Assembly: GCA_963680875.1 (NCBI GenBank) | Contig: OY804579.1 | Location: 16,445,506-16,509,505 of the forward strand | Source of the DNA: Bathymodiolus brooksi | Taxonomy: Eukaryota > Mollusca > Bivalvia > Mytilida > Modiolidae | DNA length: 64,000 nt | Direction of reading: 5' to 3' | Part shown: positions 56,435 through 62,559 of the stretch, piece after piece | How the letters are laid out: each line of letters opens with the position of its first letter | Numbering within the stretch: the stretch's first letter is position 1 | Notes under the pieces: model-generated | Database searches by the model: none | What the model was told of the DNA's origin: nothing | Seen by the model: the letters and a program-made list of their open reading frames with translations, nothing else | Made by a program: the position numbers and the translations under genes

Positions 56435-56861
56435 TTTATGTGTCGCTAAAATTCTGATCACTGACCATGACAGAAGTTAAAATTTTTGAAACTTTAATTA
56501 AAGGAGTTATCCGAGTACTCTTCTTAAAGACTTGTACACATTTTGCATTTGTAATTTCGAATGTTTTTTTAACCTTTGAAAGGTGTGGAACCTCGGCGAT
56601 GCTATCCCGGGGGTGTACATGATCATATATTAATATTGACATTTTTTTTATGAATGAATAATACATTTGACATGTTTATTAACTTTTATGAAAATCCAAT
56701 AATAACATTGAAGTGAGCGAGCAGCATTTACCATTTTATCAAGCTCAAAAGAAATTTTGAAACTTTAATGAACTTGTTTTTAGAATCCGTCAACTCTTTT
56801 AGTACGGTAATTTTATCTATGATACATTATCATCTAGAGCTTCACTATCTCTATGTACTAC
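56435..56861. other. Non-coding spacer
   Basis: AT-rich, with no supported feature. It ends at the TAC that borders the CAACGTTG element. The minus frame at 56436-56666 has no domain. Confidence 0.4.
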
Positions 56862-57046
56862 CCCAGCAGGCACACAACGTTGAATAAACGTTGAAACAAC
56901 GTTGTATTCCTACGTTGAATCAACGTTGATTTTGAGTTGGATATGGAAGTTGAAACAACGTTGAAATTTCAACGTTGAACCAACGTTACTTTTCAACGTT
57001 GATTAAACGTTGAAAAATGGTTGTTTTCATGTTGAATTTGGGTTCA
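56862..57046 (+). repeat. Left CAACGTTG terminal array
   Basis: At least eight CAACGTTG or close variants in both orientations (the word is self-complementary), spaced irregularly at about 12-40 bases. The outermost bases CCCAGCAGGCACA pair with the right end. Confidence 0.85.
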
Positions 57047-57871
57047 ATAAATAGACTCCCTTTTTCCATAGTATGCACTCTTCTTGCATCTTGTCTCTTT
57101 TTCTAAGCCATATTAGAACATAGTGATTTTATTGCTGCCTTTGTGTTCCTTAATATTCAGTTTGTATTGGTAGTTTTTATTTGGAATAAGAGGTTCTTCT
57201 TCTCATCATTATTCAATTACTGGTACTGTTATTGTATACATTGTAATAGTATATAATGTGGAGCTAGATGAAATATTTGTAATTTCCAATGTTACTGTTA
57301 CTATAGTTCCAATCATACCGTATGACAATATAGTGTAAAAAGGGGGACAGATAAAATGCCCCCCCCCCAAAAAAAACAAACTTAGAATTCTGCGAGTTAG
57401 AATAAATGTTGCATAAACTATATTTTGCAATTAACATGACAAATATAATAGAATAACATTGGTCATTAAAGATTACTGTTTAGGATAAGAGGTCCATAAA
57501 TGGGTGATCTTTGATTTTTATGAAATTTTACATGCAACTAGATTGTAAGGACCTGCATCCAGAATTTGAAAAATTAATACATGTTATAGGTTTTGAGATA
57601 TGATTCATCAACGATTTATACCCCGAAAATGAATCCAATTACATCATAATTTTTTTACCTATAAATTAGAACAATAAATTGCTGTTATATTTTTTTACAG
57701 AAAATCTGTAGGACACATACCTTTGGCATATAATGAAATTTTAAATTTTGTGAATTTTCTTAAGTTTCATGCAGTTTTAACCAAATATATAAAATATAAA
57801 TTGTTCAATATTTGGATGCTAGTCCTTACAATTTAGTTGCATGCAAAAGTTCACAAAATTCCAACAGATCC
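57047..57871. other. Non-coding stretch downstream of the minus-strand gene
   Basis: Contains a poly-C/poly-A run near 57358-57378. The frame at 57209-57430 covers low-complexity sequence and is not supported. Confidence 0.5.
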
Positions 57872-58125
57872 GGGGCCCGGGTGGGTCGTTGGATCTAACA
57901 GCTCATACAAGCCTATTACCAATATGGCGTGGGTTCGCGCCCAGCTTTGTAAATTACAAAAAAGGGCGCACTTGACTCGCAGTCGCAAGTGATAAAGCTT
58001 ACCAGTTGCTTGCCCAGTGTCGATGGTTCTCTCCGGCTTCCTCCACCACTAAAACTGGTCGCCATGATATAGCTGAAATACTGCTGAAAGTGGCGCTAAA
58101 ACACCAAAATCTAATCAAATCAACC
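57872..58125 (+). mobile_element. tRNA-related SINE, fairly complete
   Basis: The 5' head starts near gggcccgggtgggtcgttgg (A-box-like) and has gtgggttcgcgcccag (B-box-like, near GGTTCGANNCC). The body is gggcgcacttgactcgcagt. The 3' module is ggcttcctccaccactaaaa, gccatgatatagctgaaata, ctgctgaaagtggcgctaaa. Fragments of this module occur at 883, 1886 and 46288. The frame at 58006-58368 is a shadow. Confidence 0.75.
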
Positions 58126-58398
58126 AATAGATCCCCCATTTATGGACATCTTACATTGCGACATTTCAGACTTTACAAAGTTCACTCATATTTGTTGACT
58201 GTTTTAAACACAGGTTTCCTACAAAGTGACCAGGTTCAACGGTATATATACAAAATTAATTGGCTCAGCATTAAAGTATTGAAGACTGCAACATCATCAA
58301 AATCAATCAATCTTTATTTGTATACATGTATCATAAAATGTTCTCAGTTATTTAATGTATCATTATGATTAAATCAATAAATGATGTCTGACAGAATT

Positions 58399-59663
58399 TT
58401 AAGATCTGTTTCGTATTAAAAGTCTATCGTCTCCTCTGCCATAACCGCCTATCCTTTCTGGCGCAAGCTTCAAGAAATTGGCCGCACATTCGGTATTTTT
58501 TGCCTCATCTGTGCTATGACACGTCAGAAGAACTTCTGAAAATAAAAATTAACATTTCTAATATATACCTGAACTAACAAGTTAATGAGTTTATTGAAGT
58601 TTAATACACATTTGGCTTAAGTAAATGGTTTCTGTTGTACTCAAATAATCACAAGTTGAAATGTTAGTCTTTATACCCGAGTTCACATAATATCCAATTT
58701 GTTCTCATTTCTTTAATGTGTATGCCAACAAAATTGAAATGACTAGGTACACAAGACTGCTGCTACTGTAATTACCATAGTCCTTAATCTGTATATTGTT
58801 TATTTGGATTTCTTCGCATGATGTATATTTGCAGTTTACTTTTAAGGACAAAATAAAGCGCCATGTAAATTTCACTGCTACCGTTTAAAATTCATTACAA
58901 ATACCACCTCCCGTCCTAAAAAATGTTTTAATAATTTTAATATTTGCATAGTATCACAATCAATTATTAGATTATCAAATTAAATGCTAACTTTTTATAA
59001 GATATACTTATTAAAGATTTTACTTGAAGAACATCACAATTGAAAATCATAAAAAAATTTACAATCTTAATAATAATCACTAACCTTTGATTAGTTTACA
59101 TAAGCATGACTTTGCAAAAGGGAATGTATCCTGCTTGCCCTTCATGTTCATCCCGGCCATCAGTCCATTACTCATACATCTGAAGAAAGAAAATCAAATA
59201 CACAATGTATTATCTAAACCATTCCATGGAATTATACTGCGTTAAAATTGGATTGGTATAGTACTGACTGCAAACACAAAATGGACAGGATTTAACTAAT
59301 AGCTATAATGGTTACTGTAACTCCCATTCCCTTGGAATGATATTGCAAATATGTATTATTCTGCACCTTTAGCAAACTTGACTAGGGAAAAAAAACAAAC
59401 AATTAGCCTTCTTTGTGCGGACGACTGTTTGCCACACTTTCTTTTCTTAGATACTGAAATTTAATTTGTGACCTAGTATAATTGCTGTTCTCAAGTAAAA
59501 TTCTTATTTTGACTATTTAAAAGTTTTCTATGTACAATGTATTAAGTGAGTGATGTTAAACACAGCAAGTTATAATTCTTGTTAAGCAATAAACATACCT
59601 TGACATGGCCTTTTCAAGATGATTTTTAAAATCACTCCCTCCAATCTTGGTTATCAGGTGTTT
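58399..59663 (-). CDS. Spliced gene, DUF4806-like C-terminal exons
   Basis: Three exons on the minus strand join in phase through GT-AG introns. Exon A 59663-59599 (65 nt; acceptor ttcttacag, donor gtatgt): KHLITKIGGSDFKNHLEKAM. Exon B 59179-59085 (95 nt; acceptor tttcttcag, donor gttagt): CMSNGLMAGMNMKGKQDTFP, FAKSCLCKLIK. Exon C 58535-58399 (137 nt; acceptor ttttcag) ends in TAA: EVLLTCHSTDEAKNTECAAN, FLKLAPERIGG. The xIGGS...xxNWKG-like order resembles the end of DUF4806, a domain of unknown function common in invertebrates and in transposon-linked genes (from memory, not searched). No stop or slip occurs across 98 codons. Upstream exons are unresolved. It lies wholly inside the CAACGTTG unit. 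Confidence 0.6.
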
Positions 59664-61002
59664 CTGTAAGAAAAAAATGTGATGCCATTGATAGAACTGC
59701 ACTTTTATACTGTTTTGTAGATAGCTTGTGCCAGTCTTAAAAACACAAAACATGTTTCACATAATCAGAAAAAAACACAGGAAAAAGAAACAAATTTAAA
59801 TATTTTGTAATCATCCCACAAAGTTATGTGATAGTGTACTAGATTTTAAGCCTTTGCATGGTGTTAATATACACACTTTACGATCAATTGAGTCATGAAG
59901 CAAAGAAGTTTGACATTAAATAACAACAACAATTTTGGTAATTTCTTAGAAGTCTGTATAATTTCCAGTTTGCACTTTTCACATATGAAATTTTGTTGTA
60001 TGACCTACATGTATATGATGATCAACTTTTTGGAATTGTATCTTATAAGCCATCTTCTTTTTCCAACTTCGGTATATGTTGTACATTTTGTAACTTATTC
60101 TAGTGCTCTATAACTGTTGACAAAGTGGTTCAACAATCGGGCAACACCTTAATTAAAAAAAAATTGCATGGCAGTTGTTGACCCATACATACTGAAGTGA
60201 GTCAGTCGGTCAGCAAATTTACACATGTATTTTAATTCTGTATTTTACCAGCAAAAAATATAATAAAATGAAAAAAAGGTGCACATGGGACATAGATGCC
60301 CCTACTCTTATCAAAATCAAAGTTGACAGGCCTTTTGTGATTCTTAACACAGCCAAATTTCAAAACATTTGACCAAGTCCAAGGCAAACTCAAGTTATTG
60401 AAGGGAAACCAAAACATGGTGGAGGGAAAGACAGACGGACAAGGGTAAAACATAATGCAAAATTGGTCAACTAGAATAAGTAAATGCACACAAACCAATG
60501 TGTCCACAGTTGAACGACAACGAATAACTACCCCAAAATAGGGTGTCCCTATCGATAGTATACTTGCAGAAATAGTGTTTTAACATGTATAATCTGCTGT
60601 TTGTGGTTTTTTTCATTTTCATGAGTCACATTAACAGACAAGTAGGAAGTCACAAACCTATATATACACTTCAAACTGTTTTTATTTGGTAACTAGTTAA
60701 CTCGTACCACTGCAAACAGTTTAATAATAATTAATTAATTGGCTTTTAATATTGGCATATTTTTTTTGGGATGACAGTTGAAAGCAGTTTCAAAATAATT
60801 TTGATTAATAGATTTCTTTTGATCTTTATATTGTTATTTAATTAGGTAATCATGTTTTCTTAAGTCCTCGTTGAACTATAATTAAATTTACTAATTATCT
60901 ATTTAATGAGATGATTGAATTTTGAGTTTGATTTTAATGTGATAGCTTGGAATTTGTTGTGCTCAACACACGAGCCCTATCAAAGCCAACCCTTGTTATA
61001 AA
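59664..61002. other. Probable intron/intergenic sequence inside the 5.5-kb unit
   Basis: No exon could be supported on the minus strand here. An interspersed repeat fragment (about 60280-60460, with gacagacggacaagggtaaa) gives rise to the open frame at 60232-60507, which I do not accept as coding. The frame at 59895-60113 is likewise unsupported. Confidence 0.45.
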
Positions 61003-61210
61003 ATGTCATTCATTGGTGGTGTGTTTAATAACCAAAATGAGCGACGACAGTTGTATATGGTGCCACGCTCCTGTAATACCCCGTCAAGAGGCAGTAGAAT
61101 GATATTTGTTCAAGATGGCATCACAGATTGGAAAGTGTGGAAATATGGGATACGTTCAATATAATTACGAGTTGACTTTAAAACTTTTTAATTTTATTTG
61201 TGCAACCTGT
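61003..61210 (+). pseudogene. Zinc-finger-like exon relic
   Basis: From ATG 61039 the plus strand reads MSDDSCIWCHAPVIPRQEAV and then meets TGA. One frame over, directly after, come DICSRWHHRLESVEIW. Together these give the pattern CxxC...PRQEAVE-C-D-x-C-x-x-W-x-H-R, like the start of PHD-type fingers found in invertebrate transposon-linked proteins (recall, not a search). A two-base loss explains the slip. An alternative 53-codon ATG frame (61003-61164) overlaps it. The downstream cysteines are missing. Confidence 0.4.
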
Positions 61211-61484
61211 TTTGCCCACCCCCCCTTTTTTTTAATTCCCCAAAAGTCACAGCCCGTGCTTAAAATGTACATTCCTTAATTAATATGTTTGAATAAAGAT
61301 GTTTCCATTTTCTAAGTAATATTATTCGCTGTAACAAAAACTGAGGAATGCAAAGTCAAACAACAAACCATGCAACAATGTAATTTATTGACGTAATGTA
61401 AATCAAACACGACACGAGCACTGCTCTTTAACCAGAGTTTAAAACGAAAATCTTGGTGGTGGTGCTTTGTGATATGCAAATTAC

Positions 61485-61607
61485 CTCTTCAAAACAGTTT
61501 TCACCAAAAACAACACCTGGCTTCAGGATACTAAAAAATCTTTCTGCTTCTTCGTGTCTCTGTGTTGATATACGCGCTCGATATTTGAACCACTCGGCAA
61601 TGCGCAT
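61485..61607 (-). CDS. Candidate first coding exon of the minus-strand gene
   Basis: ATG at 61607 with an upstream in-frame TAA. It has 41 codons: MRIAEWFKYRARISTQRHEE, AERFFSILKPGVVFGENCFE, E. It ends exactly at a GT donor (gag|gtaatt) in phase 0, the phase in which exon A (59663) begins. It has protein-like composition in AT-rich surroundings. Whether it joins directly to exon A or through unseen exons is unknown. It may belong to another transcript. Confidence 0.45.
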
Positions 61608-62171
61608 GTGCGAATTTTGTTACTTCCCGTTTCTAGCCTGCGAAAATTTAAAAATGATATTTAAAACGAAATTTTACCTACTGATTCGATTAACAGTTCA
61701 ACGCATACATGGTGGTTACTAGTAGGAAGGAAGTCCCAGTAAGAGACTTATATTAAATTGAAACAGAGACATATTTGGCTCCGATTTAAATTAAGGGATA
61801 TGTCTGAGGAAAAAAAGGGGGGTGCATGAAAATAAAATTAGGAAGGGGTTGGCCTTAAAGTGAAATAGAGAATTTGCTCTTTGCATCAACTCCTTTATTT
61901 CTTTGACCATGCAGAGTTGCTGACTGCTAAGAACTGTTTTAGCCTTTCTTTAAATTTGTGAGAAATACTATTGCAAGGGGGGGTGGGGGTGGCGGCTTGA
62001 TATGGTGATTTTTTTTTTTAAAGTAAGTGTTGATATTAAAAGAGAGACATGGTAGGCGGTGTTTCATCCCAAAACATGAAATAAAGAGTTCTCTACCTTA
62101 AAAGGGCCTAGCCCAAGAGTTTCAAATACCCCCCCCCCCCTTTAATAGTTCATCCCCTTTGAACTGAGAAG

Positions 62172-62354
62172 GTTGAATGTTCAACGTTGAAACAACGTTG
62201 CTGTTTTCAACGTTGTTCCCACTACGTAATATCAACGTAGATTCAACTTGCAAATTCAACGTAGAAATTGTAACGTTGAAACAACGTTGAATTTTGGTTG
62301 TTCAACGTAACAACCAATTTTCAACGTTGATTCAACGTTGTTGTGCCTGCTGGG
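62172..62354 (-). repeat. Right CAACGTTG terminal array
   Basis: Inverse counterpart of 56862-57046: ttcaacgttgaaacaacgtt, caacgttgttcccactacgt, and terminal caacgttgttgtgcctgctg. Confidence 0.85.
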
Positions 62355-62559
62355 TACACTTCATCATAAGTTATTGATTTCTCCAGGCGTTCATGTGTAC
62401 TACACAAATCATGTGACTCAGAAAAGTATGGATTGTAAACAAGCAAAGAAAAACATCGGGGATTTATATGTAAATATTAAAAGTCGAGTTGACAGTTAAT
62501 GCCCCTGAAATAAATTTTAATGAATATCAAAATACACAGAAAAAAATTACGTTTTCTTT

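Follow-up and report, generated by a model that had tools for sequence, protein, structure and literature searches.

A probable non-autonomous DNA transposon with regularly spaced terminal palindromes and passenger exons in the bivalve Bathymodiolus brooksi

A 64,000-nucleotide stretch of the Bathymodiolus brooksi genome (assembly GCA_963680875.1, contig OY804579.1, positions 16,445,506 to 16,509,505), hereafter termed the window, carries at positions 56862 to 62354 a mobile element of 5493 bp, to which no strand is assigned. We consider it probable (about 0.75) that this element is a young, non-autonomous copy of a class II (cut-and-paste, terminal inverted repeat) transposon that is moved in trans and that carries decaying passenger exons. 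A first-pass annotation, prepared from the sequence alone, had proposed a bordered mobile unit containing a spliced gene. Its borders, matching tips, TAC flanks and terminal CAACGTTG arrays are all present where it had placed them, and the bordered unit carrying exons recurs at other loci; the interpretation it gave to the gene fares less well.

The element begins and ends with the 13-bp terminal inverted repeat CCCAGCAGGCACA, which occupies positions 56862 to 56874 on the plus strand and 62342 to 62354 on the minus strand, and the same tips are found in other copies. Directly outside lie two TAC trinucleotides (56859 to 56861 and 62355 to 62357, plus strand) that constitute a 3-bp target duplication. 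Inside the tips, a left subterminal array (56875 to 57013) and a right subterminal array (62181 to 62341) each include six copies of the palindromic word CAACGTTG. These 12 copies are the only ones in the window, whereas 100 shuffles of the window gave a mean of 0.69 and a maximum of 3. The arrays are likewise dense in ACGT cores, with 10 on the left (gaps of 11, 11, 13, 11, 35, 14, 11, 13 and 11 bp) and 11 on the right (gaps, counted from the tip inwards, of 11, 19, 21, 11, 14, 24, 11, 14, 15 and 11 bp) within 150-170 bp, compared with three over 4300 bp of the interior. When four elements are pooled (the window copy, L024, L017 and the L033/L032 element described below), 33 of 87 gaps measure 11 bp, 21 measure 13-14 bp and 12 measure 22-25 bp, counts that are not independent because the window and L024 arrays are homologous. 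No published description of CAACGTTG, CCCAGCAAACA or CCCAGCAGGCAC ends was present among the literature matches listed, in a search that left Repbase outside its scope.

Evidence for mobility comes from the other copies. Across the 2.0-Gb genome (136 contigs) there are 77 occurrences of the left-tip 18-mer CCCAGCAGGCACACAACG and none of its reversed control. Of these 77 tips, 27 were examined with long surrounding stretches (26 loci) and five more with stretches of 3 kb. Both tips enclose the same interior at eight loci, namely the window (L010), L009, L016, L022, L023, L024, L028 and L029. A ninth such copy, L041 on contig C16, has immediate flanks identical to those of L009 on C14, and thus a larger stretch around the element has probably been duplicated. 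Two further elements, L017 and L021, possess the tips and arrays of the window element with a different interior, which is what one would expect were the ends alone required for movement. The remaining stretches contain a single recognisable tip each, except for L011, which has two tips in the same direction, and for short tip pairs in L025 and L042.

The window, L016 and L023 copies are mutually only one or two substitutions apart over 5.49 kb (one each between the window and L016 and between the window and L023), if length differences in two C runs are set aside. Their flanks have no mutual BLAST match at 1e-5. Such near-identity at unrelated sites, the pattern of a class II terminal inverted repeat transposon, points to very recent movement. 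A second young pair, L024 and L029, differs by two substitutions and is 95.5% identical to the first group; L009 and L024 are 97.4% identical. Flank matches among the six copies compared were confined to two pairs: L022 and L023, with a 183-bp stretch in common, and L024 and L029, with a weak match of 76 bp. In addition, the last exon of the passenger chain (exon D, below) gives identical query match scores at five loci (on C5, C1, C2, C6 and C10).

Identical flanks border all 11 elements that have clean tip pairs, and they measure 2 bp in nine (L009 TG, L022 TA, L023 TT, L024 AT, L028 AA, L029 GT, L017 AT, L021 CT and the L033/L032 element AG) and 3 bp in two (window TAC, L016 CAG). No fixed target word is apparent among these 11. 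Three cases stand outside this count: L041 (TG, with flanks as in L009) and the short pairs of L025 and L042, to which we return below.

In its anatomy the element appears most like the CACTA/EnSpm transposons. Members of that superfamily have a short terminal inverted repeat, a 2-3 bp duplication of free sequence and repeats packed densely into the outer 150-400 bp of each end, and their non-autonomous copies have mainly the ends in common. All of these features recur in the present family; however, its tips read CCCAGCA rather than CACTA or CACTG, its repeats are 8-bp palindromes, and no CACTA transposase came to light, although no search was aimed at that family. Because the CACTA tip is absent, we do not place the element in this superfamily. 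Tc1/mariner, ISL2EU and Mirage elements duplicate TA, whereas the 2-bp duplications of the present family vary. PIF/Harbinger elements use a 3-bp TWA or CWG target, whereas nine of our 11 elements have only 2-bp identity and the two 3-bp cases are TAC and CAG.

A second lineage shares the interior and differs in its ends. L033 and L032 jointly constitute a 5.9-kb element with CCCAGCAAACA tips, arrays of TAACGTT[A/T] and an AG on either side, whose interior is 85.9-91.9% identical to that of the window element in aligned blocks; L040 has the same right tip. Despite the different array word, the 11-bp spacing of ACGT cores is favoured in these ends as well. Two array 'dialects', CAACGTTG and TAACGTT[A/T], occur on one interior. 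Eight places where exon D lies away from CCCAGCAGGCACACAACG were examined, and TAACGTT[A/T] ends were recognised in two of them (L032 and L040). The other six have no clear tip: the 2.4-2.6 kb taken of L034, L036, L038 and L039 contain no CCCAGCA tip, and L035 and L037 contain CAACGTTG words and can be aligned nearly as far as the left end of the window element, with no recognisable tip.

The mover of the element was not found among the sequences searched. Neither the exon chain nor ten other open reading frames (ORFs; 63-130 amino acids) of the window copy have a transposase domain detectable with Pfam; a Hydrophob_seed match in one of these ORFs (E 0.011, under its cut-off) is taken as chance. 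Two candidates encoded in or near related ends were also considered. The DUF6589-like protein of L017 was rejected because its gene, although inside a CAACGTTG-ended element, belongs to a separate nested insertion with its own CAGTCGGA... inverted ends and an ATG duplication. The site of this insertion is uninterrupted in L021 (where the junction was read) and in L027 (by alignment), and in L011 the site holds roughly 0.85 kb of different sequence. The nested element itself is 3.49 kb long (L017:1738-5222; C1:68395300-68404600) and ends in CAGTCGGAGAGCAAAC and GTTTGCTTTCCGACTG. Its protein has 90 public relatives at E <= 0.01, including one cluster that represents 512 sequences and one relative named Mytilus coruscus, and the relative P0005 matches PF20231 at E 0.02, under the cut-off. 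The second candidate, a P-like transposase/PIF1 unit of L013, L014 and L043, was set aside because it is enclosed by its own 560-bp inverted repeats (93% identity); it lies 2-4 kb from a CCCAGCAGGCACA tip, and of an L017-type end it shares the terminal part alone. In this unit (L014:1653-4413) a TNP-like_RNaseH_N reading (E 0.0011, under cut-off) stands beside a PIF1-like helicase reading (E 4e-12).

The mechanism that we favour is one in which a transposase made elsewhere in the genome would recognise the CCCAGCA tips and, judging from their layout, perhaps also the evenly spaced ACGT palindrome arrays. It would then excise the element and insert it again, duplicating 2 bp (at times 3 bp) of target sequence. 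The spacing of the cores may align binding sites along a single helical face, where a protein could bind cooperatively. The interior would comprise the last exons and the polyadenylation signal of a possibly BEN- or DUF4806-like gene, carried along as a decaying, 5'-incomplete passenger.

The exons in question lie on the minus strand. Exon B (59599 to 59663, 65 nt) has the acceptor CTTACAG and the donor GTATGT, exon C (59085 to 59179, 95 nt) has the acceptor TTCTTCAG and the donor GTTAGT, and exon D (58399 to 58535, 137 nt including the stop TAA) has the acceptor TTTTCAG. An AATAAA polyadenylation-like signal follows downstream of exon D (58313 to 58318, minus strand), and AAATAAAG recurs in L032. 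The three exons with GT-AG borders, agreeing phases and 98 codons open to TAA thus hold as first described, with the correction that the chain opens at an acceptor, so that its 5' end is missing. A possible 5' exon, A (61485 to 61607, minus strand), supplies an ATG and a phase 0 donor (GTAATT), and joined in phase to B-D it yields 139 amino acids. It is doubtful, because its frame is broken by indels in five of eight copies (L009, L022, L024, L029 and L028) and intact only in the window, L016 and L023.

The exon chain travels with the termini. A genome-wide scan for exon D, in which 150 of 301 candidates were scored and 119 rows were taken as exon D, placed it inside the tip and in the expected orientation at 31 or more of the 77 tips (29 at 1.5-3.0 kb, two at 9-12 kb). 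No scored exon D lies inside the other 46, and the one exon D found in the opposite orientation is accounted for by the right-hand tip of the L009 element. The first-pass annotation had allowed that the exons might lie outside the termini in other copies; among the scored rows none does so within 12 kb of any of the 77 tips, and this comparison is limited in that 30 of the 119 rows are tied to a CCCAGCAGGCACACAACG tip and 89 are away from the exact 18-mer.

Comparison of lineages gives no sign of purifying selection on exons B-D between the two recently mobile subfamilies, as judged from sequence differences. The window and L024 exons differ by 2 synonymous and 18 nonsynonymous substitutions (proportions per site, pS and pN, of 0.033 and 0.076). 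The corresponding counts are 2 and 21 for the window and L009, 1 and 10 for the window and L028, 2 and 9 for L024 and L009, 3.5 and 13.5 for L024 and L028, and 3 and 17 for L009 and L028, so that pN equals or exceeds pS in all six comparisons among four lineages. Divergence from the window copy is also higher in the exons than in the rest of the element (6.7% versus 4.3% for L024, 7.7% versus 4.6% for L009 and 3.7% versus 3.3% for L028). The L024-type frame stops eight codons earlier than that of the window, and copies of this type have also been recently mobile; in L028, exon D contains 2 inserted bp. Taken together, the lack of constraint, the early stop and the insertion indicate that the frame was probably not needed for recent moves. 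With no transposase domain and with exon A broken in most copies, the proposal that the exons encode an autonomous element's own protein finds no support.

Several observations weigh against the trans-mobilised, decaying-passenger reading. No autonomous partner was found, which leaves mobilisation in trans as an inference. Of the two short, mismatched-tip pairs, both units resembling miniature inverted-repeat transposable elements with CCCAGCAGGCAC-type tips (one mismatched in each), the 108-bp unit at L025:686-793 is flanked by TT on both sides and the 105-bp unit at L042:7703-7807 has no duplication. The gap counts carry no shuffle control, and an array that grew from an 11-bp tandem unit would show the same spacing with no binding protein needed. 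Selection may have acted at few sites or before the subfamilies split, since the comparison covers 297 exon positions in four lineages and includes no significance test. Finally, the 98-codon frame and its splice sites are still open and intact in the youngest lineage, a state that is compatible with neutral decay but not demanded by it.

The naming of the exon chain is a weak lead. Its residue order looks DUF4806-like by eye, and a Pfam search of the joined exons did not bear out the label of a DUF4806-like gene. DUF4806 is the best match of the L024 reading (14.6 bits, E 0.043 over 24736 Pfam models) and the second of the L009 reading (12.4 bits, E 0.2), behind linker histone at E 0.18. Neither reading, nor any other, reaches the gathering cut-off of 25 bits, and the matches span profile positions 35-78 or 36-78 of 90. 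Three of five readings (the window reading, a four-lineage consensus and a 60-residue piece of L028) have no DUF4806 match in Pfam. The two weak matches are not independent, because L009 and L024 are related copies. Still, resemblance to one family named in advance among 24736 is suggestive, if not proof. Sub-threshold Pfam matches to RPN11_C (window and L028 readings), linker histone and EFG_IV are taken as chance. A genome search with PF16064 returned no matches, but its controls also scored 0 of 14, which makes it uninformative. A protein search with the B-C-D consensus found no relatives, and one with the joined exons found three (P0001-P0003), all through exon A and all from JGI or ENA contigs; the presence of exon A, or part of it, in these contigs implies related copies in other sequenced samples. 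The P0001 match has 89% identity over roughly one third of the query.

Three rival accounts stand beside the passenger reading. The possibility that the element captured a host gene fragment by transduplication, at a time when the CAACGTTG and TAACGTTA lineages had not yet separated, is a tentative one that we regard as somewhat unlikely. The chain is complete at its 3' end and incomplete at its 5' end, it retains introns and a polyadenylation signal, and its last exons occur in both end types. However, no intact source gene emerged from the scored candidates (a minority of the 119 exon-D rows were viewed singly), and a protein search found no relatives of exons B-D. The captured host gene of the first-pass annotation thus survives as an idea that lacks a donor locus among those candidates.

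It is rather improbable that non-coding transposon DNA has yielded the open exon chain by chance. The exons are short (22-45 codons), no protein homologous to B-D was found, the window reading does not match DUF4806, no constraint is visible, and the only two DUF4806 matches come from related copies. An accidental reading would nevertheless have to account for three acceptors and two donors that are consensus and in phase, for the AATAAA that follows them, and for a residue order that resembles DUF4806 by eye.

TnpA acts on the subterminal repeats of CACTA elements, and by a similar arrangement the element could be autonomous or semi-autonomous, with a BEN/DUF4806-like protein as its own end-binding factor on the CAACGTTG arrays and perhaps a transposase from elsewhere. 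The palindromic, evenly spaced arrays at both ends would suit such a factor, as would the best-placed DUF4806 match of the L024 reading, and the five splice dinucleotides of exons B-D are kept in seven of eight copies. In two published reports, the BEN domain of NAC1 selected the palindrome ACATGT (PMC7764960), and BANP and BEND3 preferred unmethylated CpG motifs (PMC11472053). A palindrome with a central CpG would fit a putative BEN-type reader of this kind. We nonetheless hold this account to be unlikely, because pN equals or exceeds pS when mobile subfamilies are compared, the mobile L024-type copies stop early, L028 has lost the exon C acceptor in addition to its exon D insertion, the first 34 DUF4806 profile positions are unmatched by the exons found, and the DUF4806 score stays under the cut-off with most readings unmatched. 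Its boldest extension is a clan in which a BEN/DUF4806-like protein encoded by the element binds helically phased arrays of ACGT palindromes, and in which array specificity switches between the CAACGTTG and TAACGTTA lineages while the interior stays the same. Such a clan would parallel, in animals, the CACTA system of TnpA and subterminal repeats, and BEN-type DNA-binding domains could have come from it; this extension is the least probable of all.

Under the passenger reading, the window copy represents a cleanly bounded and apparently still mobile family of DNA transposons whose terminal palindrome arrays are unusually regular. The two dialects on one interior make it testable which protein reads the array and whether its specificity changes with the array. 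The passenger frame would serve as an example of intron-bearing gene pieces that ride in such elements and decay there.

Other repeats are associated with the family. An interspersed repeat at 57884 to 58109 (no strand assigned) within the window element also occurs solo at other loci and is 82-88% identical to sequences in L007, L019 and the flank of L023. It looks SINE-like (resembling a short interspersed element), and ARAGORN found no tRNA in it. An imperfect 25-nt inverted repeat (TAAGAGGTCCATAAATGGGTGATCT) encloses it at 57486-58153. The L009 copy carries a 1.49-kb insertion (L009:1733-3219) with CAGTGCCTGAAATG inverted ends and a GATTCA duplication, and the window copy is without it. 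Eight copies of one CCCAGCAGGCACA end, seven at C1:2.67-4.56 Mb (L002-L008) and one at C17:4.18 Mb (L043), are flanked by identical or almost identical sequence (gtaaattcatta) and represent a larger repeated unit.

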